Assembly: GCA_001189345.1 (NCBI GenBank)
Contig: LFKV01000023.1
Span: 124,001-188,000 of the forward strand
DNA length: 64,000 nt
Direction of reading: 5' to 3'
Origin: Candidatus Paraburkholderia kirkii
GTDB lineage: Bacteria > Pseudomonadota > Gammaproteobacteria > Burkholderiales > Burkholderiaceae
The stretch's first letter is position 1. Each line of letters opens with the position of its first letter. The notes beneath the pieces were generated by a model. That model was given only the letters and a program-made list of their open reading frames with translations. It searched no databases and was not told the origin of the DNA. The position numbers and the translations under genes are program-made. Below, piece after piece: positions 26,309 to 40,756 of the stretch.

Positions 26309-26324
26309 GGGCACACCCCTTGCT
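26309..26324 (+). promoter_or_regulatory. sigma54 (-24/-12) promoter before the DJ-1/PfpI gene
   Basis: GGGCACACCCCTTGCT: GGCAC, five bases, TTGC, with the required GG-N10-GC spacing. One base off TGGCAC at the first position. It ends 64 bp before the ATG at 26388. Confidence 0.65.
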
Positions 26325-26387
26325 GAAACTTCGGGCATGGATTCCGCAGACGCGGAAGCTTCGAAACCAATCACAAGGAGTTTATTC

Positions 26388-26932
26388 ATGGCCATTTCCC
26401 TCCACGGCTGCAAGGTCGCGATTCTCGCGGTCGACGGCTTCGAGCAGGCCGAACTCGTCGAGCCGCAGCGCGCGCTCACGCAAGCCGGCGCGCACGTGGA
26501 TATCGTCTCGCGGAAGCCCGGCCAGATTCAGGGTTTCAAGCATGTCGACAAGGGCGACGTCGACGTCACGCTCGACGCGGCCGATGCCACCGACTACGAC
26601 GACGCGCTCGTGCTGCCGGGCGGCGTCGTGAACGGCAATGCGATCCGGCTCGATGCGAAGGCGCAGAGCTTCGTCAAGGAAGCCGACGAAGCGAAGAAGC
26701 CCATCGCCGTGATCTGCCATGGCGGCTGGCTGCCGATCTCGGCGGGCATCGTCGCGGGCCGCACGATGACGAGTTGGCCGAGCCTGCAGGACGACGTGCG
26801 CAATGCCGGCGGAACCTGGGTCGATCGGAAGTGCAGATCGACGGCAATCTCATCACGAGCCGCAAGCCCGACGATCTGCCGGTCTTCAACCACGCGCTGA
26901 TCGAGGCGCTGGGCAAGGCACGCGCGGCCTGA
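26388..26932 (+). pseudogene. DJ-1/PfpI-family protein, late frameshift
   Basis: Start at 26388 (MAISLHGCKVAILAVDGFEQ), AAGGAG 7 bp upstream. PfpI-type core: LVEPQRALTQAGAHVDIVSR, YDDALVLPGGVVNGNAIRLD, and the nucleophile elbow PIAVICHGGW with its Cys. Near 26826 the frame shifts; the proper end (QIDGNLITSRKPDDLPVFNH, ALIEALGKARAA) stops at 26932. The catalytic core is upstream of the break. The family includes stress-induced glyoxalase III/deglycase-like enzymes. First gene of a run of four before a terminator. Confidence 0.85.
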
Positions 26933-27016
26933 GCCGCGTGCCGTCATGCCGCGCGAAACCGGAGCCAGGCCGATGCCGGGATGCCCTTTCCCCCTGCCGA
27001 AGTCGAAGAGTCGCGC

Positions 27017-27560
27017 ATGCGCGCAATCGCGCTCCTGCTCGCCGCCAGCGCACCGTTCGCGCAGGCGCAAACCGGAGACGCCGCCCGCGCCGAGGTGGCG
27101 CAGTCCGCGCAGTCGCAGAAGCTCTCGGCGATGGACCAGCAGTTCCTGGAAGGACGCCGGGCAGGCCGGCGCCACCGAGATCGCGGCGAGCAAGCTCGCC
27201 CTCACGCATGCGAGCGACCGTCGGACGAAGGAATTCGCACAGCGAATGATCGTCGATCACACGAGGCTCGCGCGCAATCTCGACGTGCTCGCCAAGCGCC
27301 ACGGCATCACGGCGCCGCCCGCCGCGGATACGTCCGTGATCGGCAGCCTGCAAAATCTCCAGGGCGCGGAGTTCGACAGGGCCTATATTGAGAAGGTGGC
27401 GATCGGCGGCCATCAGAAGGCGTCGAGCTGTTCAGGAAGGAAAGCAAGAGTGGGCAACGACACCGCTCTCAAAGCAGCGGCGAACAAGGCCCTGCCGGTC
27501 ATCGGCCACCACTACGAGATGGCACGGCAACTCGCCGGGTCGACGAAGGCTGCGTCATGA
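27017..27560 (+). pseudogene. DUF4142 secreted protein, frameshifted
   Basis: Start at 27017 (MRAIALLLAASAPFAQAQTG), a signal peptide. The mature part has the ferritin-like helical DUF4142 pattern: AGATEIAASKLALTHASDRR, TKEFAQRMIVDHTRLARNLD, then LKAAANKALPVIGHHYEMAR. Shifts lie near 27148 and a compensating pair near 27421-27452 (VELFRKESKSG is out of frame). Periplasmic, role unknown; common in stress-related gene clusters. Confidence 0.8.
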
Positions 27561-27619
27561 ACATCGCGAACGTCGCGGGGCGCGCCGCCGCTTCCCGTCC
27601 CGCTTATGAGGACTCGACC

Positions 27620-27907
27620 ATGCACATCACGTTTGCAGACGAATCCCCCGTGTATGACGGCGACGATCTCGCGGTCCACTTCGCCGCGCTCGTCGACGGC
27701 GAGCCGGTCGTGTGCTCGATCACCGCCGAGGCGCTCGAAGATCATTTCGGCGCGCGATCGCCGCGCGAAGAGGACATGCTCGATGCCTTCGCGAGCGGCG
27801 CGGCGCGCATCCGCGCAGTTTGCGCCGAAGCGCTCGACGAGAGCGGCGGCCAGCCCGTCGTGCTGAGAAGCGGTTTGTTCCGCGTCGCCGGCCTGGAGCC
27901 CGAGTAA
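27620..27907 (+). CDS. DUF1488-family protein
   Basis: 96 residues from the ATG at 27620 (MHITFADESPVYDGDDLAVH), preceded by GAGGA at the usual distance. Contains AALVDGEPVVCSITAEALED and SGAARIRAVCAEALDESGGQ, the DUF1488 layout. Soluble, no known function. Intact. Lies between DUF4142 and the glycine-zipper gene, all on the same strand. Confidence 0.8.
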   Translation: MHITFADESPVYDGDDLAVHFAALVDGEPVVCSITAEALEDHFGARSPREEDMLDAFASGAARIRAVCAEALDESGGQPVVLRSGLFRVAGLEPE

Positions 27908-27965
27908 GCGGGCTTGCCACGCATCGCGACGAACCCATGCAACCCAAAGTCAACGAGGAGGAAAC

Positions 27966-28538
27966 ATGTCACTGATCATTGCAGGCAGATTTCAGACTTT
28001 CCCTGCCGCCGAATCGGCAGCCCAGCGTCTGTTCGCGCGCGGCTTCGTCGAAGAAGACGTGACGCTCTTCTTCGTCAATCCGAGCGGGCAGCACGCGCGA
28101 TATCCGGTCGGCGGCGATGTCAGCACCGATCCGGGCGCGAGCGGCGCGCCCAAGGGCGCCGGCAAGGGCGTGACGATCGGCGTGGTCATCGGCGCCGTGG
28201 TGGGAGCAGCGGTCTTCGCCGTCTTTCACGCGCCGCTGCTCGTCTCGGTGATCGCGGCCGGCGTCGGCGCGTATGTCGGATCGCTCGTCGGCGCGATGTC
28301 GCATACGAACAAGCCGAAGGCGGTGTCGCATGCCCAGGAGCCCGCGCGGCACGCCGGCGTGCTGGTCGCGGTGCATGTTTCACCCGAGACGCAGGAGCCG
28401 GCCGCAACGGTGCTGCGCGAGGCGGGCGGCATGGATATCGAGCGCGCATCGGGCCGCTGGAAGCAAGGCCGCTGGAGCGACTTCGATCCGCTTCAGCCGC
28501 CGCATCCCGTCAGCGAGTACGTGCATACGCGCGCCTAG
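27966..28538 (+). CDS. glycine-zipper membrane stress protein (YflT/DUF1269-like)
   Basis: 190 residues; RBS GGAGG just before the ATG. An N-terminal ferredoxin-like part (MSLIIAGRFQTFPAAESAAQ, RLFARGFVEEDVTLFFVNPS) resembles the general-stress 17M/YflT domain. It is followed by a Gly-zipper membrane segment (GVTIGVVIGAVVGAAVFAVF, VIAAGVGAYVGSLVGAM) and a C-terminal repeat of the soluble fold (AGVLVAVHVSPETQEPAATV). Probably an envelope stress protein. Ends just before a terminator, closing the four-gene run from 26388. Confidence 0.75.
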   Translation: MSLIIAGRFQTFPAAESAAQRLFARGFVEEDVTLFFVNPSGQHARYPVGGDVSTDPGASGAPKGAGKGVTIGVVIGAVVGAAVFAVFHAPLLVSVIAAGVGAYVGSLVGAMSHTNKPKAVSHAQEPARHAGVLVAVHVSPETQEPAATVLREAGGMDIERASGRWKQGRWSDFDPLQPPHPVSEYVHTRA

Positions 28539-28858
28539 CTCGCCTTCGGCACTTCAATAAGGAAACGCCCGCATACGCGGGCGTTTTCGCTTCCGGCCTT
28601 GCCCGGATCAGACCCAGAGCGCATGAGCGCGAGGAGGACGCAGTTCGCCCGGATGCCGCAATCGGCAGGCAGGACACGCATCTTTTTCGCACCGGGCGCG
28701 GGCGGTTCGCAGAGCCGTCCGTCGCTCGCGCGCGACGACTGTGCCGGCCGCGCGTCATTGCCGACGACGTGCTGGCGGACCTGCACGGTGAGCGCCGAGG
28801 CGACGATTGCCACGAGGACCAGAAACTCGCGATTCGCGAGGCGGTTGAAGTATTTCAC
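28535..28858 (-). CDS. small hypothetical membrane-anchored protein, GTG start
   Basis: Start GTG at 28858 with AGGAG about six bases upstream, and a consensus sigma54 promoter at 28923-28938. The N-terminus VKYFNRLANREFLVLVAIVA with SALTVQVRQ is a single membrane helix; the rest is Arg/Ser-rich with Cys residues. The frame as written runs through a terminator to 28535; the true stop may be earlier (a TGA near 28612 in another frame), so the last ~25 residues are doubtful. Family not recognised. Confidence 0.5.
   Translation of the reverse strand: MKYFNRLANREFLVLVAIVASALTVQVRQHVVGNDARPAQSSRASDGRLCEPPAPGAKKMRVLPADCGIRANCVLLALMRSGSDPGKAGSENARVCGRFLIEVPKAS
28561..28590 (+). terminator. terminator of the DJ-1 to glycine-zipper run
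   Basis: AAACGCCCGC (28563-28572), 4-nt loop, GCGGGCGTTT (28577-28586) followed by TT. 24 bp after the glycine-zipper stop. Confidence 0.8.
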
Positions 28859-28922
28859 TGCATTCTCCTGTTGCCGTGTTCGCGCGATCTCGATCCGGAC
28901 GCGCCTGTAGTGCTGCATCGAG

Positions 28923-28938
28923 AGCAAGTCGCGTGCCC
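28923..28938 (-). promoter_or_regulatory. sigma54 promoter before the small GTG-start gene
   Basis: Minus strand: GGGCACGCGACTTGCT; GGCAC-N5-TTGC exact, GG-N10-GC spacing correct. 65 bp upstream of the GTG at 28858. Its presence supports that gene being real. Confidence 0.65.
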
Positions 28939-28985
28939 TCGTCCCTCCGACGGCGCCCCAATCGGCCGATGCGGCGTGTCCACGC

Positions 28986-29000
28986 TGGCACGCCGCATGC
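28986..29000 (+). promoter_or_regulatory. sigma54 promoter (near match) before the PA2169-like gene
   Basis: TGGCACGCCGCATGC: perfect TGGCACG -24 element and GG-N10-GC spacing, with ATGC for TTGC at -12. 75 bp before the ATG at 29075; divergent from the site at 28923-28938. Confidence 0.55.
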
Positions 29001-29074
29001 GGAGGGAATCGGCGAGCCGCGTCCCGCAGGGAGGCAGCGAGGTGGCAATGTGGAAATCAAAAAGGAGGTGTTAC

Positions 29075-29527
29075 ATGAGCACGAACGTCGTATCCGTACT
29101 CAACGATCTCGTCGAAACCTCGAAGGACGGAGAGAAGGGCTTTCTGAAGGCAGCCGAGGACACACGCGACCCCAGCCTCAAGCTGCTGTTCCAGAATCGC
29201 GCGGAGTCTTGCGCGCAAGGGGCGCGAGAACTGCAGGACATCGTTCAGCGCCTAGGCGGCAAGCCGGAGACCGGCGGCTCGATGGCGGGCGCGCTGCATC
29301 GCGGCTGGGTCGACGTGAAATCGGCCGTCAGCGGGCACAGCGATCATGCGATTCTCGCCGAGTGCGAGCGCGGCGAGGATGCCGCGAAGAAGAACTATCG
29401 CCAGGCGCTCGACAAGGATCTGCCAGCCGACGTCAGCGCCGTCGTGGAGCGCCAGTATCAAGGCGTGCTAGAGAATCACGACCGCATCCGGGATCTGCGC
29501 GATCAGTACGCGGCGGCGAAGTCGTGA
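29075..29527 (+). CDS. PA2169-family four-helix-bundle protein (DUF2383)
   Basis: 150 residues; AAGGAGG (29062-29068) sets the ATG at 29075. Ferritin-like helices: VVSVLNDLVETSKDGEKGFL, LLFQNRAESCAQGARELQDI, DHAILAECERGEDAAKKNYR and VVERQYQGVLENHDRIRDLR. PA2169-family proteins are stress-linked, cytosolic, function unknown. Intact, with its own sigma54-like promoter. Confidence 0.85.
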   Translation: MSTNVVSVLNDLVETSKDGEKGFLKAAEDTRDPSLKLLFQNRAESCAQGARELQDIVQRLGGKPETGGSMAGALHRGWVDVKSAVSGHSDHAILAECERGEDAAKKNYRQALDKDLPADVSAVVERQYQGVLENHDRIRDLRDQYAAAKS

Positions 29528-29562
29528 TGCGCTGAATCTCGCGGCTTCATAATCGCCGCGCA

Positions 29563-29595
29563 AAAAGACGAACGGCCGCGCATGCGGCCGTTCGT
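29563..29595 (-). terminator. terminator of the small secreted-protein gene
   Basis: ACGAACGGCCGC (29568-29579), loop GCAT, GCGGCCGTTCGT (29584-29595); AAAAAG on the plus side gives a T run on the minus strand. Lies between two convergent genes. Confidence 0.75.
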
Positions 29596-29630
29596 TCGTT
29601 GCAGGCCGGAGCCTGCGCACGGGCGGCTCC

Positions 29631-29868
29631 TTACTGCGGAGCGCCCTTGTCGTTGGTGCCGAGCGCCGAAAGCCGCGGCCGCGGCGGACGCGCCCTTGAG
29701 CTTGTGCGCCTTGTTCTGCTGGTGCAGATAGGTGCCCTTCTGCTTTTTCGCGTGCGCGCCAGCGGCCGCGCTCGCCGCGCCGGCCGCATCCGACGCCGCT
29801 TGCGCGAATGCAGCCGTGGAGAACGCCAGCGCGAGCGCGCCGATCAATGCCATCTTTTTCGTCTTCAT
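29631..29868 (-). pseudogene. small Ala-rich exported protein, frameshifted
   Basis: Start at 29868 behind AAGGAG. Signal peptide MKTKKMALIGALALAFSTAA (cleavage after FAQA), then Ala-rich sequence GAHAKKQKGTYLHQQNKAHK and LKGASAAAAAF. The main frame then drifts; the expected end SALGTNDKGAPQ with a stop at 29631 is in another frame (shift near 29668). About 78 residues. Small periplasmic proteins of this kind are common in Burkholderia; function unknown. Confidence 0.65.
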
Positions 29869-30192
29869 GAAGAGCTCCTTTTGTCGGGGCATCTGAACAT
29901 CGCGCGACGGCGCGTTCGCGAACCACCTGTGTAAGTACTGTCCTGAACGGTCGTACTTCGTTTTTAAGTTCGAAGTGCTGCGAGGTGATGCGCACTGCGT
30001 GAAGCATCATGCTTGAAGCTGCGACTCGAGCGCGTGACCCATCCGGCACGAACCACGACGCCCCATGCGAGAACCCGCGCTTCGTCCGATTCATTGCCGC
30101 TTCACGGCGAATCGTCGAACCCCACGCGGGTTCTGTCCTGCCGGCACTCGAGCGCGGCCCGCCGTGGCGAGCCGAGCATACGGACTATGCCA

Positions 30193-30537
30193 TTACTTGG
30201 CCGCAATTTTAAGATGGTTCTTCACGGAAGCAACGCCCGAGACGTTCGAGACGACTTCTTCCGCCGCGGTCTTGTCCTCCGCTGAGGGCACCGTGCGGTC
30301 AGCGACACCACGCCCGAGCGCGTCTTCACGTGGATGTGCGTGGACTTGACGTTCTTCGCGCCGAGGAGTTCGGCCCTGACCTTGGTCGTGATCGCGCCAT
30401 CATCGACCTTCTGGCCGATGGTCGTGCCGGAACCGCTGGTGGACGAGGCGGACTCGGTTTTGCGCGCTCACGTTCAGCGCGAACACGACACACGCGATAC
30501 CACCGGCTGCCTTCAGGATTTGAATCGTCTTTTTCAT
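30193..30537 (-). pseudogene. single-BON-domain exported protein, frameshifted
   Basis: Start at 30537 (MKKTIQILKAAGGIACVVFA), GGGAG upstream; signal peptide ends near VSAQ. The BON core is spread over frames: DDGAITTKVRAELLGAKNVK, VKTRSGVVSLT and the end AEDKTAAEEVVSNVSGVASV then KNHLKIAAK at 30193. Breaks near 30460 and 30285. BON proteins (OsmY type) are osmotic/envelope-stress proteins. A consensus sigma54 site lies 125 bp upstream. Confidence 0.8.
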
Positions 30538-30661
30538 GGCAATACTCCCATTTTTTCGATTCTGGTCTGGCGCGCCCCGGTCGCTTTTCGGATATGACCT
30601 GCGAGAGGCGGCTCTTCGATCACGTATCGCGCCGTAGCACGCGAAACGCACGGTTCCCTGC

Positions 30662-30676
30662 GCAATTTGCGTGCCG
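30662..30676 (-). promoter_or_regulatory. sigma54 promoter before the BON gene
   Basis: Minus strand: CGGCACGCAAATTGC; GGCACG-N4-TTGC exact with GG-N10-GC spacing. 125 bp upstream of the BON start. Confidence 0.6.
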
Positions 30677-30909
30677 GCGCGCTCCAGCGCGACCTTGGTC
30701 CGCGCGGCGAAACGGGGCTCTCACGCGAATCCGAAGAAATGATCGAGGTGAATTCAGGCGTTCGTCGGTGCTCGTGCGCCGGCCGGCGAAAGGCGCTGCG
30801 CTTTTGTCCGCGCTCGTGTAAAAGCTGCGTGAAAACGCGCCTCACGGACGCTCGACGAAAGGCAACGCGAAGGCAAAAAACGTAGACGCGACGCGTACTT
30901 GATGGACAT

Positions 30910-30925
30910 TGGCACAGCTGTTGCT
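30910..30925 (+). promoter_or_regulatory. sigma54 promoter before rpoN2
   Basis: TGGCACAGCTGTTGCT: perfect TGGCAC and TTGCT with correct spacing, 54 bp before the rpoN2 ATG. Suggests sigma54-dependent transcription of a sigma54 gene. Confidence 0.75.
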
Positions 30926-30979
30926 CTTTAGTCTTCAAGCCTGCCCACTACGTCTAGAACAATCGAGGATTAGCAAGCA

Positions 30980-32467
30980 ATGCCGCCTACACTCGAACTC
31001 CGCGCGAAGCAAAGCCTCGCGCTCACGCCGCGTCTTCAGCAGTCGGTTCGTCTTCTGCAACTCTCGTCACTGGAATTCCAGCAGGAACTGCGAAACGCGC
31101 TCGACACCAATCCTTTTCTCGAATACGATGAATCCCAGACCGAGGACAATGCGCTCGACGCCGACAACGGCAACTCGATGAGCGACGCCTCGCTCTCCGA
31201 TGTCGCCGATGGCGCCAAGGAAGCGCCGCTCGCATCCAAATCCGGCACGGAAGGCGAACAGAGCACCGATGCCGGCACGCGCGAGGATCCGGTGAGCGAG
31301 TTCTCGTCCGATCCGTTCGGCCGCGGCAGCGCGCGCAACAACAGCGACGGCGAAGGCACCGATCCCGCCGACTGGGTGCGCATCGAGCCGTCGCTGCATG
31401 AGACGCTGCACGACGCATTGCGCCTCTATCAGTTGAATGAGCGCGATCGCGCCCTGGCGCAGCTCATCATCGAGGCGCTCGACGACGACGGTTATCTGCG
31501 CCAGGAGCTGAGCGAACTCGCGGACGTGGTCGACATCGATCCCGCGCTCACCGAGGACGAACTCAACATCGCGCTCAAGCTCGTGCAGTCGCTCGACAAG
31601 CCGGGCGTCGGCGCGCGCAATCTCTCCGAGTGCCTGAGGCTGCAGCTCGAAGCGATCGACGAAGACACGCCGGGACGCGAGGTCGCGCTCGAGATCGTCG
31701 AGCATCATCTCGAGCGTCTTGCACGGCGCGAGCAGGCCGAGCTGCAGAAGAAGATCGGCTGCAGCGCGGATGAACTGCGCATCGCCTGCGCGCTCGTGCG
31801 CCGCCTCGATCCCAAGCCGGGCGAGAACTACGGCCAGAGCGAGGACAACTACGTGGTGCCGGACGTCATCGTGCGTCAGGTAAAGAAGCAGTGGATCGTC
31901 ACGATCAACCCTGCCGTGCTGCCGCGGGCGCGCATCCATCGCATGTATGCGGAGCTCTTCGTGCAGTCGGCGGGCGCGAGTCGCTCGCCGCTCGCGCAGC
32001 AACTGCAGGAAGCGCGCTGGCTGATCCGCAACGCGCAGCAGCGCTTCACGACGATTCAGCGCGTCGCCGAATGTATCGTGTCGCATCAGAAGGCGTTCTT
32101 CGACTACGGCGAAATCGCGCTCAAGCCGCTCGTGCTGCGCGACGTCGCCGACGAGCTCGGTCTGCACGAATCGACCATTTCGCGCGCCACGGGCAACAAG
32201 TACATGGCCACGCCGCGCGGCATCTTCGAGTTCAAGCATTTCTTCCCGCGCGAACTCAGCACGGAAAGCGGCGGAACGTGCTCAGCCGCGGCGGTGCGCG
32301 CACTGCTGAAGGAGATGATCGCGAAGGAGAACACGCGCGACCCGCTGTCCGACGTGAGTCTCGCGAAAATGCTCGCCGATCAGGGCGTGATCGTGGCGCG
32401 CCGCACGGTGGCGAAGTATCGCCATCTGATGAAGGTACCGCCCGCCGAGTTGCGCCGGCAGGCGTGA
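30980..32467 (+). CDS. rpoN2: RNA polymerase sigma-54 factor, second copy (RpoN2)
   Basis: 495-residue sigma54. Region I is Leu/Gln-rich (QSLALTPRLQQSVRLLQLSS), region II acidic and variable (about 45-120). Core-binding and helix-turn-helix parts follow (LRDVADELGLHESTISRATG), and the RpoN box ARRTVAKYR is at about 473-481. Intact. The usual rpoN1 neighbours (lptB upstream, hpf/ptsN downstream) are absent, so I call it the second copy found in many Burkholderia. It sits in a cluster of sigma54-promoter genes and has such a promoter itself. Confidence 0.92.
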   Translation: MPPTLELRAKQSLALTPRLQQSVRLLQLSSLEFQQELRNALDTNPFLEYDESQTEDNALDADNGNSMSDASLSDVADGAKEAPLASKSGTEGEQSTDAGTREDPVSEFSSDPFGRGSARNNSDGEGTDPADWVRIEPSLHETLHDALRLYQLNERDRALAQLIIEALDDDGYLRQELSELADVVDIDPALTEDELNIALKLVQSLDKPGVGARNLSECLRLQLEAIDEDTPGREVALEIVEHHLERLARREQAELQKKIGCSADELRIACALVRRLDPKPGENYGQSEDNYVVPDVIVRQVKKQWIVTINPAVLPRARIHRMYAELFVQSAGASRSPLAQQLQEARWLIRNAQQRFTTIQRVAECIVSHQKAFFDYGEIALKPLVLRDVADELGLHESTISRATGNKYMATPRGIFEFKHFFPRELSTESGGTCSAAAVRALLKEMIAKENTRDPLSDVSLAKMLADQGVIVARRTVAKYRHLMKVPPAELRRQA

Positions 32468-32494
32468 GGCGGCGCCCGCAGGCGCCTCGCTTTT
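32464..32494 (+). terminator. probable terminator of rpoN2
   Basis: GAGGCGGCGCCCGCAGGCGCCTC folds as an imperfect GC-rich hairpin followed by GCTTTT, directly at the stop codon. A second arm pair AGGCGCCTCGCTT / AAGCGAGGCGCCT (32480-32492 with 32527-32539) offers an alternative longer stem. Confidence 0.5.
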
Positions 32495-32689
32495 GCGCTT
32501 TCTGGCGCTCGGACGACGACCCGGTCAAGCGAGGCGCCTGAGCGACAGGGAGCGTAGCTCACAGGCCGTCCGTTCATTCGCGGACGGCTTTCTTTTTTCA
32601 AAAGATCTCTACTCGTGCGGCTCGTGCGATGTGGGATCGCCGCCTTGCAGACGAATAGCCGCATCATACGGATGACCTCGCTTGCCGGC

Positions 32690-32959: not shown

Positions 32960-33079
32960 CTTCGGTTGGAAAGGTGACGACCGTGTCACTGTATAGGTTC
33001 GTATGCCGAAATAAATTGACGACTGGCAGACGTCGAATGGAACGAGAGCGTGCGACACTCGCCTTGCCGCCACGTCAGA

Positions 33080-34005
33080 TCACGGAATCACCCGCGATGA
33101 ATCTTTTTGCCGATGCTCAACGCCAGCCCGATGCGTGCGCTTTCGCGCGGCCGTCGCCGAAAGTTCCGCGCCGAGGAGGAACACGGCGGCCGAGTAGTAG
33201 AGCCACATGAGGATGACCGCGAGCGACCCCGCCGCGCCGAACGTGTTCACCATGCCCGCGTGCGCGAGATAGAACGCGAAGAGCCGCTTGCCGCCTTCGA
33301 AGAACAGCGGCGACGGCGCCGAGCGCGGCGTCGCGCCAGAGCATGCGTGTGGTCGGCAGAAACTTGAGCAGCACCGTGAAGGCGATCGTCAGCACCGCGA
33401 GCGAGATCGCGCGCTGCGTGAGGCCCGAGAGCACGATGAACGGACTGCCGTCGCCGAGCGCCCAGTGGCCGAGTATCTCGACGAGCGCGTCGAGCACGAG
33501 CAGCACGGCGACGAGCAATCCCGCGCCCACCACCAGGCCGAACGACATCAGCCTCACGCGCAGCAGCGTGACGATGCTCTCGCGCGTGCTGACAGCCGGC
33601 GTCGGCCAGATGACGTTGAGCGCGCTATGCGGTCGCCGACGCGCCGATCAGCACGCCCGCGAGCGAAAGGATCGCCGTGCTGCGCGCGATGTCCGCATGC
33701 CACGCGTTCGCCACGATCGCCTCCAGCGCGTGCGCCGCATCCGCGCCCACGACGCCGCTGATCTCGTCGAAGAACCGCCCCTGGACGGCGTCGGCGCCGA
33801 AGAACACGCTCACCACCGAGATCACGATGACGAGCGTCGGCGCGAGCGAGAACGCGGCGAAGAACGCGATCGCCGCCGAGAACATCAGGCAGTGGTCCTG
33901 TGTCCATTGCGTGACCGGATCGACGATCCACGAGCGCCAGCCGAAACGCGAGGTGCGGCCCGAGGCAACCGGTGCCGAGGGAGTGCTTTGAACGTCCTGG
34001 TCCAT
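33080..34005 (-). pseudogene. YihY/BrkB-family inner-membrane protein, frameshifted
   Basis: Start at 34005 (MDQDVQSTPSAPVASGRTSR). Three frames: MFSAAIAFFAAFSLAPTLVI with FFGADAVQGRFFDEISGVVG; then MRLMSFGLVVGAGLLVAVLL and ISLAVLTIAFTVLLKFLPTT; then LFAFYLAHAGMVNTFGAAGS and WLYYSAAVFLLGAELSATAA, ending at 33080. Breaks near 33625 and 33310. Six-helix family of unknown transport role. Confidence 0.85.
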
Positions 34006-34072
34006 CGGGCGAAAAGCTTGAGCGCGGAAAAGTGTCGACCGCTGATGTTAGCCCGCGATGCGATACGCGTGT

Positions 34073-34107
34073 AAAAAGCGGCGCGCTCCGGATGGAGCGC
34101 GCCGCTT
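34073..34107 (-). terminator. terminator of the acidic small-protein gene
   Basis: Perfect 14-bp stem (34076-34089 with 34094-34107), loop GGAT, and a five-T run on the minus strand. Confidence 0.85.
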
Positions 34108-34131
34108 CGAAACTGCGCCGGGCGAGCCGTA

Positions 34132-34419
34132 TCAGGGCCGTTCCGCGCCGGGGTCGGCGTCCGGTTCCAGATGATTGTCGCCGTCCGCCGATGCCGCTTC
34201 GCCCGTGCCCGAGCGGTCCGTGTCGCTATTGAGTTCGCCTTCGGACTGGCCGAGAGCATGCGCATCGAGTTCGTCCTCGATGTCGCCCGGATAGCGCTTT
34301 TCGCCCTGCACGTCCGAGCCGCTGTCCGACGAGTCGCTCGGGCCGAGCGCGCCGGTGCCGTGTCCCTTGCCGTATTCCGCGCCGTCGTCTTCCGGTGGAT
34401 TCAATGTGCTTCCGCTCAT
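34132..34419 (-). CDS. small acidic hypothetical protein
   Basis: 95 residues, start at 34419 with GGAGG five bases away. Very acidic and Gly/Ser/Asp-rich (PPEDDGAEYGKGHGTGALGP, SDSSDSGSDVQGEKRYPGDI, EDELDAHALGQSEGELNSDT), no hydrophobic core, probably disordered. Seen widely in Burkholderia; function unknown. Intact, own terminator, and a sigma54-like site 35 bp upstream. Confidence 0.7.
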   Translation of the reverse strand: MSGSTLNPPEDDGAEYGKGHGTGALGPSDSSDSGSDVQGEKRYPGDIEDELDAHALGQSEGELNSDTDRSGTGEAASADGDNHLEPDADPGAERP

Positions 34420-34453
34420 CATGACCTCCTTCATTCGTGTCTATGACGAGTTC

Positions 34454-34468
34454 GCAAGTCCCGTTCCG
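34454..34468 (-). promoter_or_regulatory. possible sigma54 promoter before the acidic gene
   Basis: Minus strand: CGGAACGGGACTTGC; TTGC and GG-N10-GC kept, but the -24 element reads GGAAC rather than GGCAC. Confidence 0.4.
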
Positions 34469-34552
34469 CGGACGTGGGCCGATGCGCGCAAAAAAACCAC
34501 GCTTCTTGCGAAACGCGGGTCGATATACGTGACGGCGACGCGCTTCAGCGCT

Positions 34553-36004
34553 TCATGCCTTCGCCGCCGGCCGATTTGCTTCCGTCGCGCCCTTCTTCAC
34601 CGTCTTGACGGTCATTTCCGTGACCGAGGTCGCCGTCGCGACGCTGCGCAGATCCGACAGGAACGAATCGCGCCAGACCGAGAGATTGTTCTCGCGCAGC
34701 GGCACCATCATGTCGGCGTGACGCGCCTGCCGCTCGGCGAGCGGCATCGACAGCGCGCGCTCCAGCGCCTCGGACATCTGCGAGAGGTCGAACGGATTCA
34801 CGACGAGCGCGCCCGGCAGCTGATCTGCCGCGCCCGCGAACTGCGAGAGCACCAGCGCGCCCGGATCGGCCGGATCCTGCGAAGCGACGTATTCCTTCGC
34901 GACCAGATTCATGCCGTCGCGCAGCGGCGTCACGTAGCCCACCTGCGAGAGACGGAACAGCGCCATCAGCAGATTACGCTCGCACTTGCGGTTGAGATAC
35001 TGGATCGGCGTCCAGTCGAGTTGCGCGAAGCGCCCGTTGATGCGCCCCGCCTCGCCTTCCAGATTCTGGCGGATGCGCTGGTAGGTCTGCACGTCGGAGC
35101 GCGTCGGCGGCGCGATCTGCACGAGCGACACGCGGCCGTGCCAGCCCGGTGCGTTGAGGAGCAGCCGCTCGAACGCCTGGAAGCGTTCGACGAGTCCCTT
35201 GGAGTAATCGAGACGGTCGACGCTCATGATGAGCTTGCGCCCGCGCATGCTGTCGCGCAGGCTCTTCACCTGCTTGCGGTCGGAAAACTGCTCGGCCGAC
35301 TTGGCGATGGCGTCCGGATAGATGCCGATCGGGTACGCGCCGACCTTGAGCATGCGGCCGAATGCCTGCAGCATGCCGTCGTCACTGGCGTGGCCGCGGC
35401 CCGTGCGCTCCACGTAGTCGACGAACGACTGCTTGTCGCTCTCGGTCTGGAAGCCGACGACGTCGTACTGGCACATCGCCGCGATCAGCTCCTCGTGCGG
35501 CGGCACCGTGCGCACCATCTCCGGCACCGGAAACGGAATGTGCAGGAAAAAGCTAATCGGATTCGCGACGCCTAGCTTTCTCAGCTCGTGCGCGAACGGG
35601 AGCATGTGATAGTCGTGTACCCAGATGATGTCGTCGGGCTTGAGGAGCGTCTTCAGCTTCGCGGCGAGGCTCGCGTTGACGCGCATGTAGCCCGCGTACT
35701 CCTCGCGGTCGAAGCGCGAGAGGTCGTTGCGATAGTGAAAGGTCGGCCACAGCGTGGCGTTCGAGAAACCCCGGTAGTACTGGTCGTAATCGCGGCGCGT
35801 GAGCCCCACGGTCGCGTAGGTCACCTTGCCGTCCTTCTCGACGATGGGCGCGGCCGACTCGCCGACGATCTCGCCGCTCCACCCGAACCACACGCCCCCC
35901 GTCTCCTTGAGCGCGTCCAGCACGCCAATCGCGAGGCCGCCCGCGCTGGGCTTGCCTTCCTGGATCGGTGCGACGCGATTCGATACCACGATCAATCTGC
36001 TCAT
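34553..36004 (-). CDS. otsA: alpha,alpha-trehalose-phosphate synthase (UDP-forming)
   Basis: GT20 enzyme making trehalose-6-phosphate from UDP-glucose and glucose-6-phosphate; trehalose protects against osmotic and drying stress. 483 aa, clean frame. MSRLIVVSNRVAP, LAIGVLDALKETGGVWFGWS, IWVHDYHMLPFAHELRK, MSVDRLDYSKGLVERFQAFE, VTPLRDGMNLVAKEYVA and LSQFAGAADQL are the family's substrate-binding blocks. No otsB next to it. A consensus sigma54 promoter lies 55 bp upstream. Confidence 0.95.
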   Translation of the reverse strand: MSRLIVVSNRVAPIQEGKPSAGGLAIGVLDALKETGGVWFGWSGEIVGESAAPIVEKDGKVTYATVGLTRRDYDQYYRGFSNATLWPTFHYRNDLSRFDREEYAGYMRVNASLAAKLKTLLKPDDIIWVHDYHMLPFAHELRKLGVANPISFFLHIPFPVPEMVRTVPPHEELIAAMCQYDVVGFQTESDKQSFVDYVERTGRGHASDDGMLQAFGRMLKVGAYPIGIYPDAIAKSAEQFSDRKQVKSLRDSMRGRKLIMSVDRLDYSKGLVERFQAFERLLLNAPGWHGRVSLVQIAPPTRSDVQTYQRIRQNLEGEAGRINGRFAQLDWTPIQYLNRKCERNLLMALFRLSQVGYVTPLRDGMNLVAKEYVASQDPADPGALVLSQFAGAADQLPGALVVNPFDLSQMSEALERALSMPLAERQARHADMMVPLRENNLSVWRDSFLSDLRSVATATSVTEMTVKTVKKGATEANRPAAKA

Positions 36005-36058
36005 TACAGCATCACCCCATCAGTTGTCGTTGCATGCTCGAATTGGCGCTCAAGAGTA

Positions 36059-36074
36059 AGCAAAAGTTGTGCCA
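36059..36074 (-). promoter_or_regulatory. sigma54 promoter before otsA
   Basis: Minus strand: TGGCACAACTTTTGCT; perfect TGGCAC and TTGCT at the right spacing, 55 bp before the otsA ATG, nearly the same distance as for rpoN2. Confidence 0.75.
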
Positions 36075-36195
36075 TTTTGTTGCTATTCGTAAATAAAAAT
36101 ATGTATGCGGATGTTACGGCCGAACGAAAACACGCGACAACGACGCGTCGCGTAGAAATTTTTCTTCTTTTTCGCCGGTTGCGTGCCGGCAGGAA

Positions 36196-36431
36196 TCACG
36201 AGTCCTGCTCGGATCCGAGGTCGCGCTGGTAGTCGATTCCTTCGCGACGCACGCCCCCTGGTTATGCTCGCCGTCGGGCGGAACGCCAGGCGCGGGGCGG
36301 TTCTGGCCGGCCGGATCGTGATCGGCGGGCGGCGCGGACGCCGTCTGCGTGCCGACCGCCTTCGCGGCCTCGGCGCGCGCTTCGCTCTTGGAAGAATGAC
36401 GCGCGGAGCGTCGAAGTGCGGAATGCCTCAT
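36196..36431 (-). pseudogene. small hypothetical protein, frameshifted
   Basis: Start at 36431 (MRHSALRRSARHSSKSEARA), basic N-terminus then Pro/Asp-rich sequence (PPADHDPAGQNRPAPGVPPD). The expected end VRREGIDYQRDLGSEQDS with a stop at 36196 is in a different frame from the start (shift near 36255). No domain recognised. About 78 residues. Confidence 0.5.
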
Positions 36432-36671
36432 GGTGCCCAGAGAAGAAGGCCGTCGCGATAGTGACGTCGGCGGCGTCGGACCCATTGCGCTTCGATGAGC
36501 GTAGTTTCAGAAAATTCAGAAAAAAACGACCAGCGACAGCGCGTGTCGCCGGTCATTATTGCGTTATCCGTTTGTAATCTCTACGTCCGGGATGGAAACT
36601 TATTCAAACCTTGCACGAGTTCCGGGCATCGTCCAACGTCTGCCGTCCAGCGTCTTCCACCGCATCCTGCG

Positions 36672-36887
36672 TCAATGCACGTGCGGCATATCGCCCGGCC
36701 CCGGCGGCGGATCGCCGATCGGCTGCGACGGCGGCTCCGGCGGCTCCGGCGGCTCGCGCGTCGGATCCGGATTCGTGTCGGGCGGAATCGGCGTGGGCGG
36801 CGGCTGGTCGGGCGGCGTCACTGGCGGGTCCGGCGGCTGCGGCGTCTGGGCTTCGATACGGGCATGTTCGGAGGCGGAATCGGACAT
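36672..36887 (-). CDS. small proline-rich hypothetical protein
   Basis: 71 residues from 36887 (MSDSASEHARIEAQTPQPPD), AAGGAG upstream. Over a third Pro with PPT/PPD/EPPEPPEPP runs, no signal peptide; likely disordered. Proteins like this recur in Burkholderia near stress genes; function unknown. Repeated GGCGGCTCC units in the DNA make it slippage-prone, yet the frame is intact. Confidence 0.65.
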   Translation of the reverse strand: MSDSASEHARIEAQTPQPPDPPVTPPDQPPPTPIPPDTNPDPTREPPEPPEPPSQPIGDPPPGPGDMPHVH

Positions 36888-37130
36888 GACGGGCTCCTTG
36901 CGGTCTTGTGATCGTACATTCCCCACCTCGGCGCCGGCGCCTTCGCGCTACGCGCGGATGTCATCTCGGGGTGTCGCCTCACAGGCAGGCAGCAAGGGGC
37001 ATGCCCCCTCGGACTCTTCCGTTCCGTTTCCACCTATCACATTATCGGCGTAGAAAACGCGCCTGCCAATGAAAAATGCCTGCGCTCTTGCAAGCCGCAG
37101 ACGTCGATTTCGTCTAAAGATAGGCGAAGT

Positions 37131-38534
37131 TCAGTGACGTTCGCTGTCGGATTCGCTCACTTCCCCACTCTCTCCGACCGCCGCCTTGTGCGCGTCCTCG
37201 CCGTATTCGACGAGCCGGTTGTAGAGCGTTTTCAGGCTGATCCGGAGGATTTCCGCCGCACGCGTCTTCACGCCGCCGCACTGGTCGAGCGTCGCGAGAA
37301 TGAGCTGCCGGTCGGCCTGTGCGAGTGACGTGCCGAACGGAATCGTGACGGCCGTGCCCGCCGACGACTTCGAGAGCGAGATCTGCAGCGGCACCGTCGC
37401 CGTGCTGTCCGAATCGGATGCCGACATGATGTACGCGCGCTGCACGTAGTTCTTAAGCTCCCGCACGTTGCCGGGCCAGTTGTACGACGCCAGCATCTCG
37501 TGCACGGCGGGCGGGAACGCCTTTTTCGTGCCGTAGCGGTTGTTGAGCTCGTCGAGGAAGGCCTGCCCCAGCAACTCGACGTCCTTGCCCCGCTCGCGCA
37601 ACGGCGGCAGATTGATCGGGAACACGTTCAGGCGGTGATAGAGATCGAGGCGCAGCTTGCCCTCGAGCACCGCCTGCTCGGGATCGCGGTTGGTCGCGGC
37701 GATCAGGCGCACGTCCGTCTCGATTTCCTTGGTCGTGCCGACGCGCATGAACATGCCCGTCTCCAGCACGCGCAAGAGCTTCACCTGAAGCTCGATCGGC
37801 ATCTCGGTGATTTCGTCGAGGAACAGCGTGCCGCCGTTCGCGCGCTCGAAATAGCCCTTGTGCTGGCGATCCGCGCCCGTGAACGAGCCGCGCTCGTGCC
37901 CGAACATCTCCGATTCGATCAGGTTCGGCGAAATCGCCCCGCAGTTCACCACGATGAACGAATGCTTGCGGCGCAGACTGAGCTCGTGCAGCGTCTGCGC
38001 GGCGACTTCCTTGCCGGTGCCGGACTCGCCGATCAGCAGCACCGACGCGGCGGTCGGCGCCACGCGCCCGATCTGGTCGTAGACCGTCTGCATGGCGAGC
38101 GAATTGCCGAGCATCAGACCGAAGCGACCCATGCGGCGCAGTTCGCCGCGCAAGGTGCCGATCTCGGCCTTCAGGTCGCCGGCGCGCGGCAGGCGCGAAA
38201 GAATCGCCTTCACGCGCTGCATGTTGATCGGCTTGACCAGATAGTCGGCGGCGCCCATCTTGAGCGCGCTGACCGCGGATTCCACGGTGGCGTGACCGGT
38301 GATGACGATCACCTCGACGCCCGAGCGCGGGTCAAGGTCCTCGAACAGGTCGACGCCCGTGCCGTCGGGCAGCTTGAGATCGGTGAACACGACGTCCGGC
38401 GTCTGTCGCACGAGTTGAATGCGCGCCTCGCGCAAATCGCTGGCCGTGGCCGTCGTCAGTCCGTCTTCGCCGATGATCGCGGCTAGCGCCTCGCGGGTAC
38501 TGGGATCGTCATCGACAATCAATACGTGTGGCAT
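37131..38534 (-). CDS. NtrC-family sigma54 response regulator
   Basis: 467 aa from 38534 (MPHVLIVDDDPSTREALAAI). Receiver domain with phospho-acceptor Asp52 (FTDLKLPDGTG) and Lys in DYLVKP; AAA+ domain with Walker A GESGTGKE, the sigma54-contact loop as GSFTGA (a tolerated variant of GAFTGA) and GTLFLDEITEM; Fis-type helix-turn-helix at the end ([20 protein letters not shown]). No kinase gene adjoins. Being next to rpoN2, otsA and several sigma54 promoters, it is the best candidate activator of the island. Confidence 0.92.
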   Translation of the reverse strand: MPHVLIVDDDPSTREALAAIIGEDGLTTATASDLREARIQLVRQTPDVVFTDLKLPDGTGVDLFEDLDPRSGVEVIVITGHATVESAVSALKMGAADYLVKPINMQRVKAILSRLPRAGDLKAEIGTLRGELRRMGRFGLMLGNSLAMQTVYDQIGRVAPTAASVLLIGESGTGKEVAAQTLHELSLRRKHSFIVVNCGAISPNLIESEMFGHERGSFTGADRQHKGYFERANGGTLFLDEITEMPIELQVKLLRVLETGMFMRVGTTKEIETDVRLIAATNRDPEQAVLEGKLRLDLYHRLNVFPINLPPLRERGKDVELLGQAFLDELNNRYGTKKAFPPAVHEMLASYNWPGNVRELKNYVQRAYIMSASDSDSTATVPLQISLSKSSAGTAVTIPFGTSLAQADRQLILATLDQCGGVKTRAAEILRISLKTLYNRLVEYGEDAHKAAVGESGEVSESDSERH

Positions 38535-38890
38535 TGCGTCTCGAATTCTTCCAAAACGTTTCAGGATCACACGCCTGACATGGGCGTGGTCGTCTCTGTG
38601 CGGTCAGCGCCGCGCGGGCCGATGGAATTCACGGCGCGTCTGCCTCGATTCGCCGACGAGCCGGGAAATCCGTGAAAAATAAAAATAATTTCCGATGTTC
38701 TGCACGCTTGGCCTGAAACCGCCGTAAGTTTTTCCATTTACACAACTTATGGCAGATCCGCACTGATTATAAGCGTTTATCAAGATAAAAACGCACGCTG
38801 GTAAGCGTGCGTTTCATTGGCCGCATCGTCGAATATGCCAACTGGCCCGAGGCGTTCGCCCCGCCTTTCAGGCCCTTCGCGCCCGCGGTT
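38535..38890. other. intergenic region, no gene
   Basis: 356 bp upstream of the NtrC-type gene. The central part is AT-rich for this genome (AAAATAAAAATAATTT near 38676), suggesting promoter/IHF-type sequence. The right end holds a terminator for the small gene at 38891. No coding frame with family features. Confidence 0.5.
38786..38815 (-). terminator. terminator of the DUF883/small-gene unit
   Basis: AAACGCACGCT (38788-38798), 5-nt loop, AGCGTGCGTTT (38804-38814); T run on the minus strand. Confidence 0.75.
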
Positions 38891-39173
38891 TCAACTGCGC
38901 GGGAAATGCCACGCGTCGGCGGTGCCGCCGACCGCGCCATGCCCGTTGACGGCACGCGCGCCCGCGCCGCCGACGGCACGCGCGCCCGCGCCGCCGGCGA
39001 GCGTGAGCACCTTCCCGCCCTCGTCTTCCCAGCGGCTCAGGTCGCACGCCGCGCGTCGCCCCGCGGCGTCCTGCGATTGCACCCATTTCCAGGCAAGCAC
39101 GCTGCCGACTGCGAACAACGCGCCGAAGATTCCGATCGAGGGTCGTGCTATTTGTGTTCTCTCCCATGGTCAT
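38891..39173 (-). pseudogene. small membrane-anchored hypothetical protein, frameshifted
   Basis: Starts MTMGENTNSTT at 39173 (or 39167); the membrane helix IGIFGALFAVGSVLAWKW is in the next frame, followed by DLSRWEDEGGKVLTLAGGAG and ARAV repeats to the stop at 38891. A 24-bp tandem repeat encodes GGAGARAV twice. Lies downstream of DUF883 on the same strand, the position of YqjE/YqjK-type membrane partners in enterics, but the sequence is not clearly one of these. Confidence 0.5.
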
Positions 39174-39257
39174 GAAAATTCAAGACCGCCGCGAAGCGGC
39201 CGCCACCGCGATTTGCCGCGCCAGAGGCTAGAAACCGACAACCGACCGGCGAAGCAA

Positions 39258-39575
39258 TCATCGGGAAACCAGTAGACCCACCAGAAAGCCGACGCCGGCC
39301 GCAATGCCGAGCGACTGCCAGGGATTTTCCTTCACGTATTTCTCGGTGCAGTCGATGCCCGTGCGGTAACGGTTCTGCGCACTCGCCTGCGCATCTTCCA
39401 GCGCGACGCGGGCCGAATCGAGATGCTCGCGCAGCCGCGAGCGAAGCGCATCGACGCCCTCGCCCGGCAGCGACGCCGAGAGTCGCAGCAACTCCTCCGA
39501 ATCGTTCAGCAGCACCTTGATGTCTTCGATGATCTTTTGCTTGCCCAACGCAAGCTGGACAGTCGTCTGACTCAT
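39258..39575 (-). CDS. DUF883 (ElaB/YqjD-type) membrane-anchored protein
   Basis: 105 residues from 39575 (MSQTTVQLALGKQKIIEDIK). A long amphipathic helix (LRLSASLPGEGVDALRSRLR, ALEDAQASAQNRYRTGIDCT) leads to the diagnostic C-terminal anchor ENPWQSLGIAAGVGFLVGLL. E. coli relatives are ribosome-binding inner-membrane proteins of stationary phase. RBS GAGGA remains, but an IS5-type element starts 17 bp upstream and cuts the gene off from its former promoter. Confidence 0.85.
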   Translation of the reverse strand: MSQTTVQLALGKQKIIEDIKVLLNDSEELLRLSASLPGEGVDALRSRLREHLDSARVALEDAQASAQNRYRTGIDCTEKYVKENPWQSLGIAAGVGFLVGLLVSR

Positions 39576-39591
39576 GTAGGGAAGTCCTCGC

Positions 39592-40533
39592 CTAAGAGAC
39601 GGTTTCATAAAGGCTGTTGAGATTGCCGAAGAGTGTTCCAGCAGATCAAGCAACAACCGAGTTTGAGGAACGCTTCATGAATGTCCGCACGACGTTCGAA
39701 GCGAGTACGTAGACGGCGGAAGTTATGCAACCAGGCATGTGTACGTTCGACGACCCAACGGACTTTCCCAAGGCCGCTACCGTGCGGGTGACCGCGCCGC
39801 GCGATGCTGGTGGGAATGTTGCGCGCGTGAAGGAGGCACCGGTACTTGTCATGATCGTAACCGCGGTCGGCATAAACACAGCCAGGGCGACTCAGCGGCC
39901 GGCCGCGCACGCCGCCAATCGGTACGATGGCCTCGATCAACGGGATCAGTTGGGTGACGTCGTGACGATTGGCGCCGGTCAGGATTGCCGCGATCGGCGT
40001 ACCGTTGGCGTCGGTGGTGACGTGGTGCTTGGAACCGGGTCGTGCTCGGTCGGTGGGGTTCGGGCCAGTTTTTCGCCCGCCCCAACCGCACGAATCGACG
40101 ATGAGTCGACGACGACGCGGGAGAAGTCGATCTTCCCGGCCGCTCGTAGTTTCGCCAGCAGCAGTGCGTGCAGTCGATCCCACACGCCGGCTTGCTGCCA
40201 ATCGCGCAGCCTGCGCCAGCAACTGACGCCAGAGCCACATCCCATCTCCGCTGGCAGATCTCGCCACCGGATGCCGGTCTTCAGCACGAACAAGATGCCG
40301 GTCAGCGCAGCCCGATCCGGTACCGGCTTGCGGCCCGGATACTTGAAGCGGCGCGGCTTCGCTGGTGGTAGCAGTGGCTCGATCAGTGCCCACAGTTCGT
40401 CGTCGATGATTGGTTTGCCCATCTCCTCGATCCTGTTGTCACAACGATCGAGGTTAACAGGTTGCGTTACGGGTTAACAGCCCCTAAGACGGGTTAACAG
40501 CCCCTAAGAGATCTTTTTGAAACTACTTCTTAG
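39592..40533 (-). mobile_element. IS5-family insertion sequence (IS427-like group)
   Basis: 942 bp bounded by imperfect inverted repeats: CTAAGAGACGGTTTCATAAA at the left (39592-39611) and, inverted, CTAAGAAGTAGTTTCAAAAA at the right (40514-40533). Carries one transposase in two overlapping frames. A 20-bp unit (ACGGGTTAACAGCCCCTAAG) is repeated in tandem at 40469-40508 just inside the right end. It separates the DUF883 gene from a small upstream gene and its sigma54-like promoter. Confidence 0.85.
39605..40422 (-). CDS. IS5-family transposase, two frames joined by -1 frameshift
   Basis: OrfA starts at 40422 (MGKPIIDDELWALIEPLLPP) and has the DUF4096-type N-terminus and first catalytic Asp (VVVDSSSIRAVGAG). 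OrfB continues as GRKTGPNPTDRARPGSKHHV, with the second Asp (VYADRGYD) and Glu (VRWVVERTHAWLHNFRRL), to 39605. The frames meet at GCGAAAAAC near 40068, and the change is -1, as in programmed frameshifting of this IS group. So this may be an active element rather than a broken one. Confidence 0.85.
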
Positions 40534-40651
40534 TGGGATCCATGCGTACGAGGCCGATGCGAACCGGCGCGTGCGCGTGGAGCGCGCGGGCCCGTCGCAC
40601 GGGCTTCGTGCGCTCGTGCGCGGCGGCGTCCAAATCGAAGAAATCGTCCAT
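40523..40651 (-). CDS. small hypothetical gene, 3' end inside the IS
   Basis: 42 residues from 40651 (MDDFFDLDAAAHERTKPVRR, then ARALHAHAPVRIGLVRMDPT). The stop codon TAG (40523-40525) is in the terminal repeat of the IS, so the last codons are supplied by the element and the native end may differ. A sigma54-like promoter lies 91 bp upstream. Before the insertion it was probably the first gene of a unit with DUF883. Confidence 0.5.
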   Translation of the reverse strand: MDDFFDLDAAAHERTKPVRRARALHAHAPVRIGLVRMDPTKK

Positions 40652-40741
40652 GGTGCCCTTGCCTCTCTCGCCCGTCCTCGTGTCTGCGCCGTTGATACAG
40701 GTTGCCGGCGGTACTTTCGAATCAGCTTCGGCAACCATCAC

Positions 40742-40756
40742 GCAGCTTTCATGCCA
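40742..40756 (-). promoter_or_regulatory. possible sigma54 promoter before the IS-interrupted unit
   Basis: Minus strand: TGGCATGAAAGCTGC; GG-N10-GC spacing kept, one mismatch in each element (GGCAT, CTGC). Confidence 0.45.

Follow-up and report, generated by a model that had tools for sequence, protein, structure and literature searches.

The genome of Candidatus Paraburkholderia kirkii (3.91 Mb in 48 contigs) encodes two sigma-54 factors, and the gene for one of them, rpoN2, is surrounded by motifs that resemble -24/-12 promoters, with RpoN1 being encoded elsewhere. Are these motifs true sigma-54 promoters, which genes do they precede, and which activators and which of the two sigma factors would serve them? 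We address these questions in a 64-kb stretch of contig LFKV01000023.1, referred to below as the window. The answer that we favour, with a probability of roughly 0.65, is that a sigma-54-dependent stress regulon is conserved in Caballeronia, Paraburkholderia and their kin and that 26-43 kb of the window forms one of its islands, with the regulators NtrC1 and EBP2 as its most likely activators and RpoN2 as its probable sigma factor.

Exact sigma-54 sites cluster around rpoN2

Throughout, an exact site denotes GGCAC-N5-TTGC and a relaxed site denotes GG[CT][AG][CT]-N5-[TAG]TGC within a fixed upstream interval. The window contains five exact sites, at 26310 (plus strand), 28924 (minus), 30662 (minus), 30911 (plus) and 36060 (minus), all within 26.3-36.1 kb and with no sixth in the 64 kb; an original prediction made from the letters of this DNA had placed all five correctly to within one base. 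Dinucleotide shuffles of the window (n = 100) hold 0.82 exact sites on average and 3 at most. When the 47 exact sites of the whole genome are placed uniformly, with the contigs joined as one line, a stretch of 9.8 kb (a length taken from the data) receives at least five of them in 44 of 200,000 simulations, a chance of about 2e-4. Over the whole genome the excess is slight, the reversed control pattern occurring 37 times. Many of the 42 exact sites outside the island fall inside likely coding sequence.

A looser 16-mer with up to two mismatches shows no excess in the window (23 found, 24.2 expected), and near matches were therefore judged by conservation alone. This lack of excess and the genome-wide count of 47 against 37 are what would be expected if the cluster had arisen by chance or from the base composition of a GC-rich genome. 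Such an origin is nevertheless highly improbable, being contradicted by 80 named loci in which the motif, with its specific spacer, is conserved at orthologous positions, and by 20 further loci of other genera that contain 34 exact sites compared with 5-8 for control patterns.

The sites are conserved at orthologous positions

Relatives were compared in two sets. In the first, 24 of 40 relatives belong to the same genus, assigned to Caballeronia because G139, one of its genomes, has a match at the coordinates of the C. ptereochthonis RpoN2 record, and provide rpoN2 loci of 5.6-20 kb; the second consists of the 80 named loci, 42 from Caballeronia and 38 others (mostly Paraburkholderia), with species that partly overlap those of the first. 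All loci counted in this study share descent, and their counts are thus not independent events. The window and its 24 relatives together make up 25 rpoN2 loci with 101 exact sites in 463 kb, compared with 5.6 expected at the density of this genome. The 42 Caballeronia loci hold 151 exact sites, against 1 and 7 when the spacer is changed to N4 or N6, 2 for the reversed pattern and 16 and 8 for permuted ones; in the 38 other named loci, the 85 exact sites compare with 15, 5, 8, 23 and 13 for the same controls.

The conservation extends to individual genes. The exact site at 26310..26323 (plus strand) precedes a DJ-1/PfpI gene (26388..26933, plus strand; PF01965 on its 5' part, 26388-26834) and is found in relaxed form in 31/31 Caballeronia and 27/28 other loci, 30 of the former being exact. 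Two sites lie back to back further along the window: the exact site at 28924..28937 (minus strand), upstream of a small GTG-start open reading frame without a Pfam match (28535..28858, minus strand), is retained in relaxed form in 29/32 Caballeronia loci (9 exact), and GGCAC-N5-ATGC at 28987..29000 (plus strand), upstream of a DUF2383/PA2169-family four-helix-bundle protein (29075..29527, plus strand; PF09537, TIGR02284), in 38/38 Caballeronia (8 exact) and 29/32 other loci. The divergent BON-type and rpoN2 genes carry exact sites at 30662..30675 (minus strand; relaxed in 42/42 Caballeronia, 38 of them exact, and 28/31 other loci) and 30911..30924 (plus strand; relaxed in 41/42 Caballeronia, 23 of them exact, and 38/38 other loci), respectively. 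The BON-type gene (30190..30540, minus strand) was recognized from its translation, and its positional counterpart in P. xenovorans (L104) has a match to Pfam BON, PF04972; rpoN2 itself (30980..32467, plus strand) matches PF00309, PF04963, PF04552 and NF009118.

Further downstream, otsA, encoding trehalose-6-phosphate synthase (34553..36004, minus strand; PF00982, and TIGR02400 above cut-off), has an exact site at 36060..36073 (minus strand) that is relaxed in 36/36 Caballeronia loci (28 exact) and also occurs at otsA in other genera. A ninth site, GGCAT-N5-TTGC at 36992..37005 (minus strand), was absent from the original prediction; it lies upstream of a small proline-rich protein recognized by translation (36675..36887, minus strand) and is present, never in exact form, in the 8/8 usable Caballeronia loci. 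The proline-rich gene is found in 13 of the 24 relatives, and the site precedes it in 12 of the 13, with the thirteenth having GGAAT. Spacers of 4 or 6 bases before these seven gene sets give 0-4 matches.

Two other near matches conform to slightly different patterns. The sequence GGAAC-N5-TTGC at 34454..34467 (minus strand) precedes an acidic protein without a Pfam family (34132..34434, minus strand); the relaxed pattern occurs in 8/35 Caballeronia loci, rising to 34/35 once GGAAC is allowed (GG[CA]A[CT]-N5-TTGC), and spacers of 4 and 6 are found in 0/35. The site at 40742..40755 (minus strand), GGCAT-N5-CTGC (GGCATGAAAGCTGC), belongs to a unit whose downstream part is a DUF883 (ElaB-like) gene (39258..39575, minus strand; PF05957, PF19029), with an insertion sequence element and its transposase frames lying between gene and site at about 39600-40500. 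A relaxed site occurs immediately upstream of DUF883 in 1/35 Caballeronia loci; GGCA[CT]-N5-NTGC lies 432-593 bp upstream in 33/35, a count made without a spacer control. All eight sites of the original prediction are thus conserved in at least 29/32 Caballeronia loci, upstream of the genes and in the orientation that it gave. For its three near matches this support comes from conservation and not from counts in the window.

When the upstream regions are aligned without an anchor, the DNA around the -24/-12 elements proves poorly conserved and the elements themselves form conserved islands. An anchored profile of the Caballeronia loci gives conservation of 0.94-1.00 in the motif and 0.45-0.73 in the flanks; it is biased because its rows are limited to relaxed-motif matches (for example, 29/32 for the GTG-start gene), and its flank windows reach 0.81 at rpoN2 and 0.90 at otsA, and the unanchored alignments are preferred. 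At the target genes, the GG and GC dinucleotides keep a constant distance of 10 bases within motifs of the GGCAC-N5-TTGC type. GG is preceded by T at the rpoN2 and DUF883 sites and at most of those of DUF3309, but seldom at DJ-1, BON and otsA. These features support the view that the island sites behave like true sigma-54 promoters, having a conserved motif, a fixed spacer, orthologous positions and specificity for particular genes.

Other genes of the same region have no consistent site. Relaxed sites were found in Caballeronia upstreams of DUF1488 in 1/36, of the glycine-zipper gene in 3/36, of YihY in 0/36, of NtrC1 in 0/35 and of the MFS gene in 3/33, and these five were rejected as direct island targets. 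Upstream of EBP2, a relaxed match is present in 14/36 Caballeronia loci.

Further conserved targets outside the island

The original prediction described a local regulon. Its central elements fared well, in that the sites look like true sigma-54 promoters and precede stress-type genes; the word local did not, since other regions of the genome also hold targets with conserved sites. All 42 exact sites outside the island were screened by a rule based on GC content by codon position, and 18 were read for downstream open reading frames. Genes named by Pfam behind such sites include a divergent DUF4142/DUF1488 pair (the same families as genes of the island), DUF3309, DUF1328, topoisomerase IB, a starch/glycogen synthase and an Fe/Mn superoxide dismutase. 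The site is retained at DUF3309 in 22/23 loci (19 GGCAC, 3 GGCAT), at topoisomerase IB in 20/24 Caballeronia loci (18 GGCAC, 2 GGCAT) and at DUF4142 in 17/28 loci inspected (30 fetched). Among the 10 loci nearest the query, 10/10 have the two divergent sites between DUF4142 and DUF1488, the DUF1488 gene being named only in the window's genome.

The site before the glycogen synthase gene glgA has an identical sequence in 3/3 genomes read. Behind it come a GlgE-like gene and a TreS gene in both loci that extend far enough, and GlgB in the other; TreS is named in the window's genome, and GlgE-like is our own reading of a protein with no NCBIfam match at the threshold used. Because otsA and the glgA-TreS cluster both carry conserved sites, two trehalose routes lie behind sigma-54 sites. 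DUF3309, topoisomerase IB and the glgA-(GlgE-like)-TreS cluster also occur together, in a second sigma-54 island (L387, 4004-18892).

In this genome, exact sites of the sigma-54 type also precede genes for a superoxide dismutase (sodB; C16:42043, plus strand; L155), a transketolase-like protein (C23:30634, minus strand; L162) and an F420-type oxidoreductase (C35:11740, plus strand; L169). A gene of the 2Fe-2S oxidoreductase type likewise lies near such a site. In the island of P. xenovorans (L104, 2137-2703), a PRC-barrel gene has a GGAAC-N5-TTGC site upstream.

NtrC1 and EBP2 are the candidate activators

As predicted, Pfam confirms that the stretch encodes RpoN2 together with two sigma-54 activators. 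NtrC1 (37131..38534, minus strand) consists of a receiver, an AAA+ sigma-54 activator domain and a Fis-type helix-turn-helix (PF00072, PF00158, PF02954), and EBP2 (41306..42295, plus strand) of an AAA+ domain and a Fis-type helix-turn-helix without a receiver (PF00158, PF25601, PF02954). The GSFTGA loop is present in both. In the following, genera are given by code (g36 being Paraburkholderia, since its genomes G104 and G174 match at the places of P. monticola and P. gardini), genomes by G-numbers and loci or stretches by L-numbers. NtrC1 orthologues share 84-91% identity in g36, g41, g29 and g24 and 72% in g40, and an EBP2-like gene lies within a few kb of NtrC1 in all 18 genomes concerned.

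In several genera the pair lies beside rpoN2. The order rpoN2, otsA, NtrC1, EBP2 is kept within 10.5 kb in 5/5 g41 loci, 2/2 g29 loci and one g23 locus, and the otsA GGCAC site stands at the same distance in the 7/7 g41/g29 loci. In g31, otsA and NtrC1 follow rpoN2 in a stretch that stops before the place of EBP2; in the single g32 locus, NtrC1 and EBP2 adjoin rpoN2 without otsA; and in g40 both lie within 3 kb of rpoN2 in 3/3. NtrC1 and EBP2 were not seen in the g24, g27 and three of the g36 rpoN2 stretches. Topoisomerase IB lies 5-7 kb from rpoN2 in 4 of the 5 g36 genomes that have the gene, and elsewhere in Caballeronia, where its site is mostly kept. Gene content and synteny make the NtrC1/EBP2 pair the best candidate activators of these sites.

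Footprint alignments reveal a conserved inverted-repeat block (30794..30829), a possible enhancer, in the DNA that separates the divergent promoters of BON and rpoN2. It is strong in Caballeronia, with a weaker version in Paraburkholderia, and the pattern TTTT-N14-AAAA is present in 92% of the BON/rpoN2 upstreams.

Weighing RpoN2 against RpoN1

RpoN2 appears equipped to serve as the sigma factor of this regulon. Its AID, core-binding and DNA-binding domains and its RpoN box are all present, its closest named relative is that of Caballeronia ptereochthonis (95%), and rpoN2, which sits amid the sites, is found in 25/25 genomes of the genus (the window's and its 24 relatives). Eight RpoN2-bearing loci contain 20 exact sites compared with 0-1 for controls, a stronger excess than that of loci lacking RpoN2. 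Similarly, among 18 genomes with topoisomerase IB out of 30 searched, the TTGC-type site of this gene is present in the 9/9 g36, g41 and g24 genomes, which have RpoN2, and in 0/3 of g19, which has no RpoN2, although one of these three has GGCAC-N5-GTGC, a form accepted at DUF2383; in g40, GGAAC-N5-TTGC is found in 2/2. The DUF2383 site is present in 6/8 genomes with RpoN2 (5/5 in g36 and 1/1 in g29) and in 0/4 without it within a limit of 400 bp, although genome G124, which has no detectable RpoN2, has GGCAT-N5-TTGC about 0.5 kb upstream.

Several observations weigh against the reading that we favour or against RpoN2 as the driver. RpoN1 and RpoN2 have the same RpoN box, ARRTVAKYR. Genome G124 (L394; 4.1 Mb, Paraburkholderia group) has no detectable RpoN2 and only an RpoN1-like match, and keeps the otsA site, NtrC1 and EBP2. 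Six RpoN2-less loci contain 10 exact sites compared with 1-3 for controls. The topoisomerase IB site is found in 0/4 genomes of g27, whose RpoN2 is 60-62% identical, and the DUF2383 site in 0/2 of g24, which has RpoN2. In 6/6 g36 and 2/2 g24 loci, the NtrC1/EBP2 pair lies with otsA and away from rpoN2. The 5' end of EBP2 may be damaged here, or the gene may start at 41306, because the leader of its relatives (about 26 residues in L062 and L083, leaving no space for a receiver) is in another frame in the window (41229-42295). No enhancer common to the targets emerged from 11 upstream sets: among palindromes built of 4- or 5-mers and spaced by 0-15 bases, only TTTT-N14-AAAA at BON/rpoN2 was clearly above the mirror control. 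As to individual targets, DUF1328 has a site in 9/30 loci only (the family has up to 6 members per genome) and was rejected as a general target. In 20 Caballeronia katE upstreams, GGCA[CT]-N5-TTGC occurs in 0/20, where starts were set by a simple rule and the upstream DNA of two loci extends over only about 200-330 bp; weaker forms occur in 4/20, one of them GGTAC-N5-TTGC 56 bp from the start. The gene, lacking a good site, was rejected as a target here, unlike in the account that PMC4745423 gives for another species.

The strongest alternative is that the sites are real sigma-54 promoters served mainly by RpoN1, with rpoN2 as a target or backup and with NtrC1 and EBP2 defining the regulon. 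The common RpoN box, the otsA site retained beside both activators in G124 and the residual motif excess of the RpoN2-less loci as a group all speak for it; because of G124, RpoN1 may serve the sites. Across genera, moreover, the otsA site tracks rpoN2 no better than it tracks the activator pair, and in Ralstonia solanacearum an rpoN2 deletion is reported to have had no visible phenotype (PMC4676750). The same source reports that the two paralogues are not interchangeable, and this, together with the place of rpoN2 amid the sites, its presence in all 25 genus genomes compared and the way in which the topoisomerase IB and DUF2383 sites mostly follow RpoN2, makes service mainly by RpoN1 a somewhat unlikely, if serious, alternative. 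Given G124, the excess in RpoN2-less loci and the shared RpoN box, we regard sigma-54 control of the sites as secure on sequence grounds and RpoN2 in particular as only the probable driver; that part of the original prediction, which had inferred a regulon driven by RpoN2, stands unproven.

A further possibility is that chance has brought together a number of distinct sigma-54 circuits, each under another activator, and that no single stress regulon exists. Here the lack of a shared enhancer dyad counts in its favour, the BON/rpoN2 block being the only one clearly conserved. Separate circuits are nonetheless rather improbable, since the gene set recurs, DUF4142, DUF1488 and trehalose genes each being found at two or more of the sigma-54 loci, and since the islands are joined or apart in different genera with their sites retained. 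The otsA genes that lie with the activator pair away from rpoN2 in g36 and g24, for example, have GGCAC or GGCAT-N5-TTGC 50-73 bases upstream of the aligned start. Our reading is that pieces of the regulon may move in the genome and keep their promoters.

Island genes in an eroding genome

From its small genome and many broken genes, Ca. P. kirkii is probably an eroding, host-restricted symbiont, and the island bears marks of this. Frameshifts break the DJ-1, DUF4142 (27017-27559), BON-type and YihY-type (33117-34005) genes, with exact promoter sites remaining at DJ-1 and BON. The frames of rpoN2, NtrC1, otsA and DUF2383 are open in the window. Ratios of nonsynonymous to synonymous substitution relative to C. 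ptereochthonis are low, at 0.065-0.105 for rpoN2, NtrC1, otsA and the open part of EBP2, and span 0.03-0.11 when DUF2383 is counted with them; the comparison is pairwise, so that both branches contribute.

Discussion

Under the single-regulon reading that we favour, sigma-54 polymerase would wait at the -24/-12 promoters of DJ-1, the GTG-start gene, DUF2383, BON, rpoN2, the acidic protein, otsA, the proline-rich protein and the DUF883 unit, and elsewhere in the genome at those of DUF3309, topoisomerase IB, the glgA-(TreS) cluster, DUF4142 and DUF1488. A stress signal, which could be osmotic, related to stationary phase or derived from the host, would reach NtrC1, and NtrC1 and its partner EBP2, as the most likely activators, would then remodel the waiting polymerase. 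RpoN2 would be the probable dedicated sigma factor, and the site before its own gene would give positive feedback.

The general stress regulons of RpoS, AlgU and EcfG include otsA and targets of the DUF3309, DUF1328, DUF883, BON and DUF2383 types. These three are sigma-70-family factors, whereas sigma-54 sites need an AAA+ activator. The target families here are similar to theirs, and the sites are of the sigma-54 type instead.

Sigma-54 regulons and specialized second RpoN proteins are already known (PMC13207237, PMC4676750). The plasmid-borne RpoN of Bradyrhizobium sp. DOA9 is proposed to tune stress adaptation through a restricted regulon (PMC13207237); it resembles RpoN2 as a second RpoN with a stress role, a likeness by description, and belongs to another group of organisms. 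In Burkholderia pseudomallei, RpoN2, also a second RpoN and encoded on the second chromosome, has been linked to katE by a mutant, quantitative reverse-transcription PCR and activity staining, and CysM and HisA are also lower in the mutant (PMC4745423). That system differs in having katE as a target, and the gene set of the Caballeronia island does not appear in the portion of PMC4745423 consulted. The RpoN2 of R. solanacearum is likewise a second RpoN paralogue and not interchangeable with RpoN1, and it differs from what we propose in that no rpoN2 phenotype is reported; the words trehalose, stress and osmotic are absent from the main text of PMC4676750.

A link to a known phenotype concerns the bean-bug symbiont C. 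insecticola, in which one of three otsA paralogues (ACDS08420) is up 12-fold and treS 4-fold in symbiotic cells, and in which deletion of otsA causes sensitivity to salt and sucrose (PMC10100943). That system and the island have otsA in common. PMC10100943 names RpoS of E. coli as regulator, and the words rpoN, sigma54 and promoter are absent from its main text. Judging by tag numbering, which would place it between roughly 0.85 and 0.94 Mb on a replicon of 3.0 Mb, ACDS08420 is probably the island copy: genome G001, probably C. insecticola, has rpoN2 at 0.896 Mb and an island otsA (L045) with an exact site.

No account of a sigma-54 stress regulon of such composition from Burkholderia sensu lato turned up in searches of open-access literature, which include few subscription papers. 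Tentatively, and with somewhat less confidence than in the regulon itself, we suggest that in this group a duplicated sigma-54 and the NtrC1/EBP2 pair, possibly as a mixed hexamer, took over a general stress programme and switch on the sigma factor's own gene. If so, an ATP-driven, enhancer-controlled sigma factor would govern both trehalose routes, topoisomerase IB, and the envelope and small helical proteins in place of RpoS, AlgU or EcfG, and a stress programme would be run by another class of sigma factor. The papers cited here assign little function to the second RpoN of these genera (katE, two amino-acid enzymes, a cited link to intracellular survival, or no phenotype), and a conserved, nameable set of targets makes its role directly testable, with G124 as a natural test of which sigma factor serves. 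It would also offer a regulator for the trehalose genes that are important in the insect symbiosis of Caballeronia.

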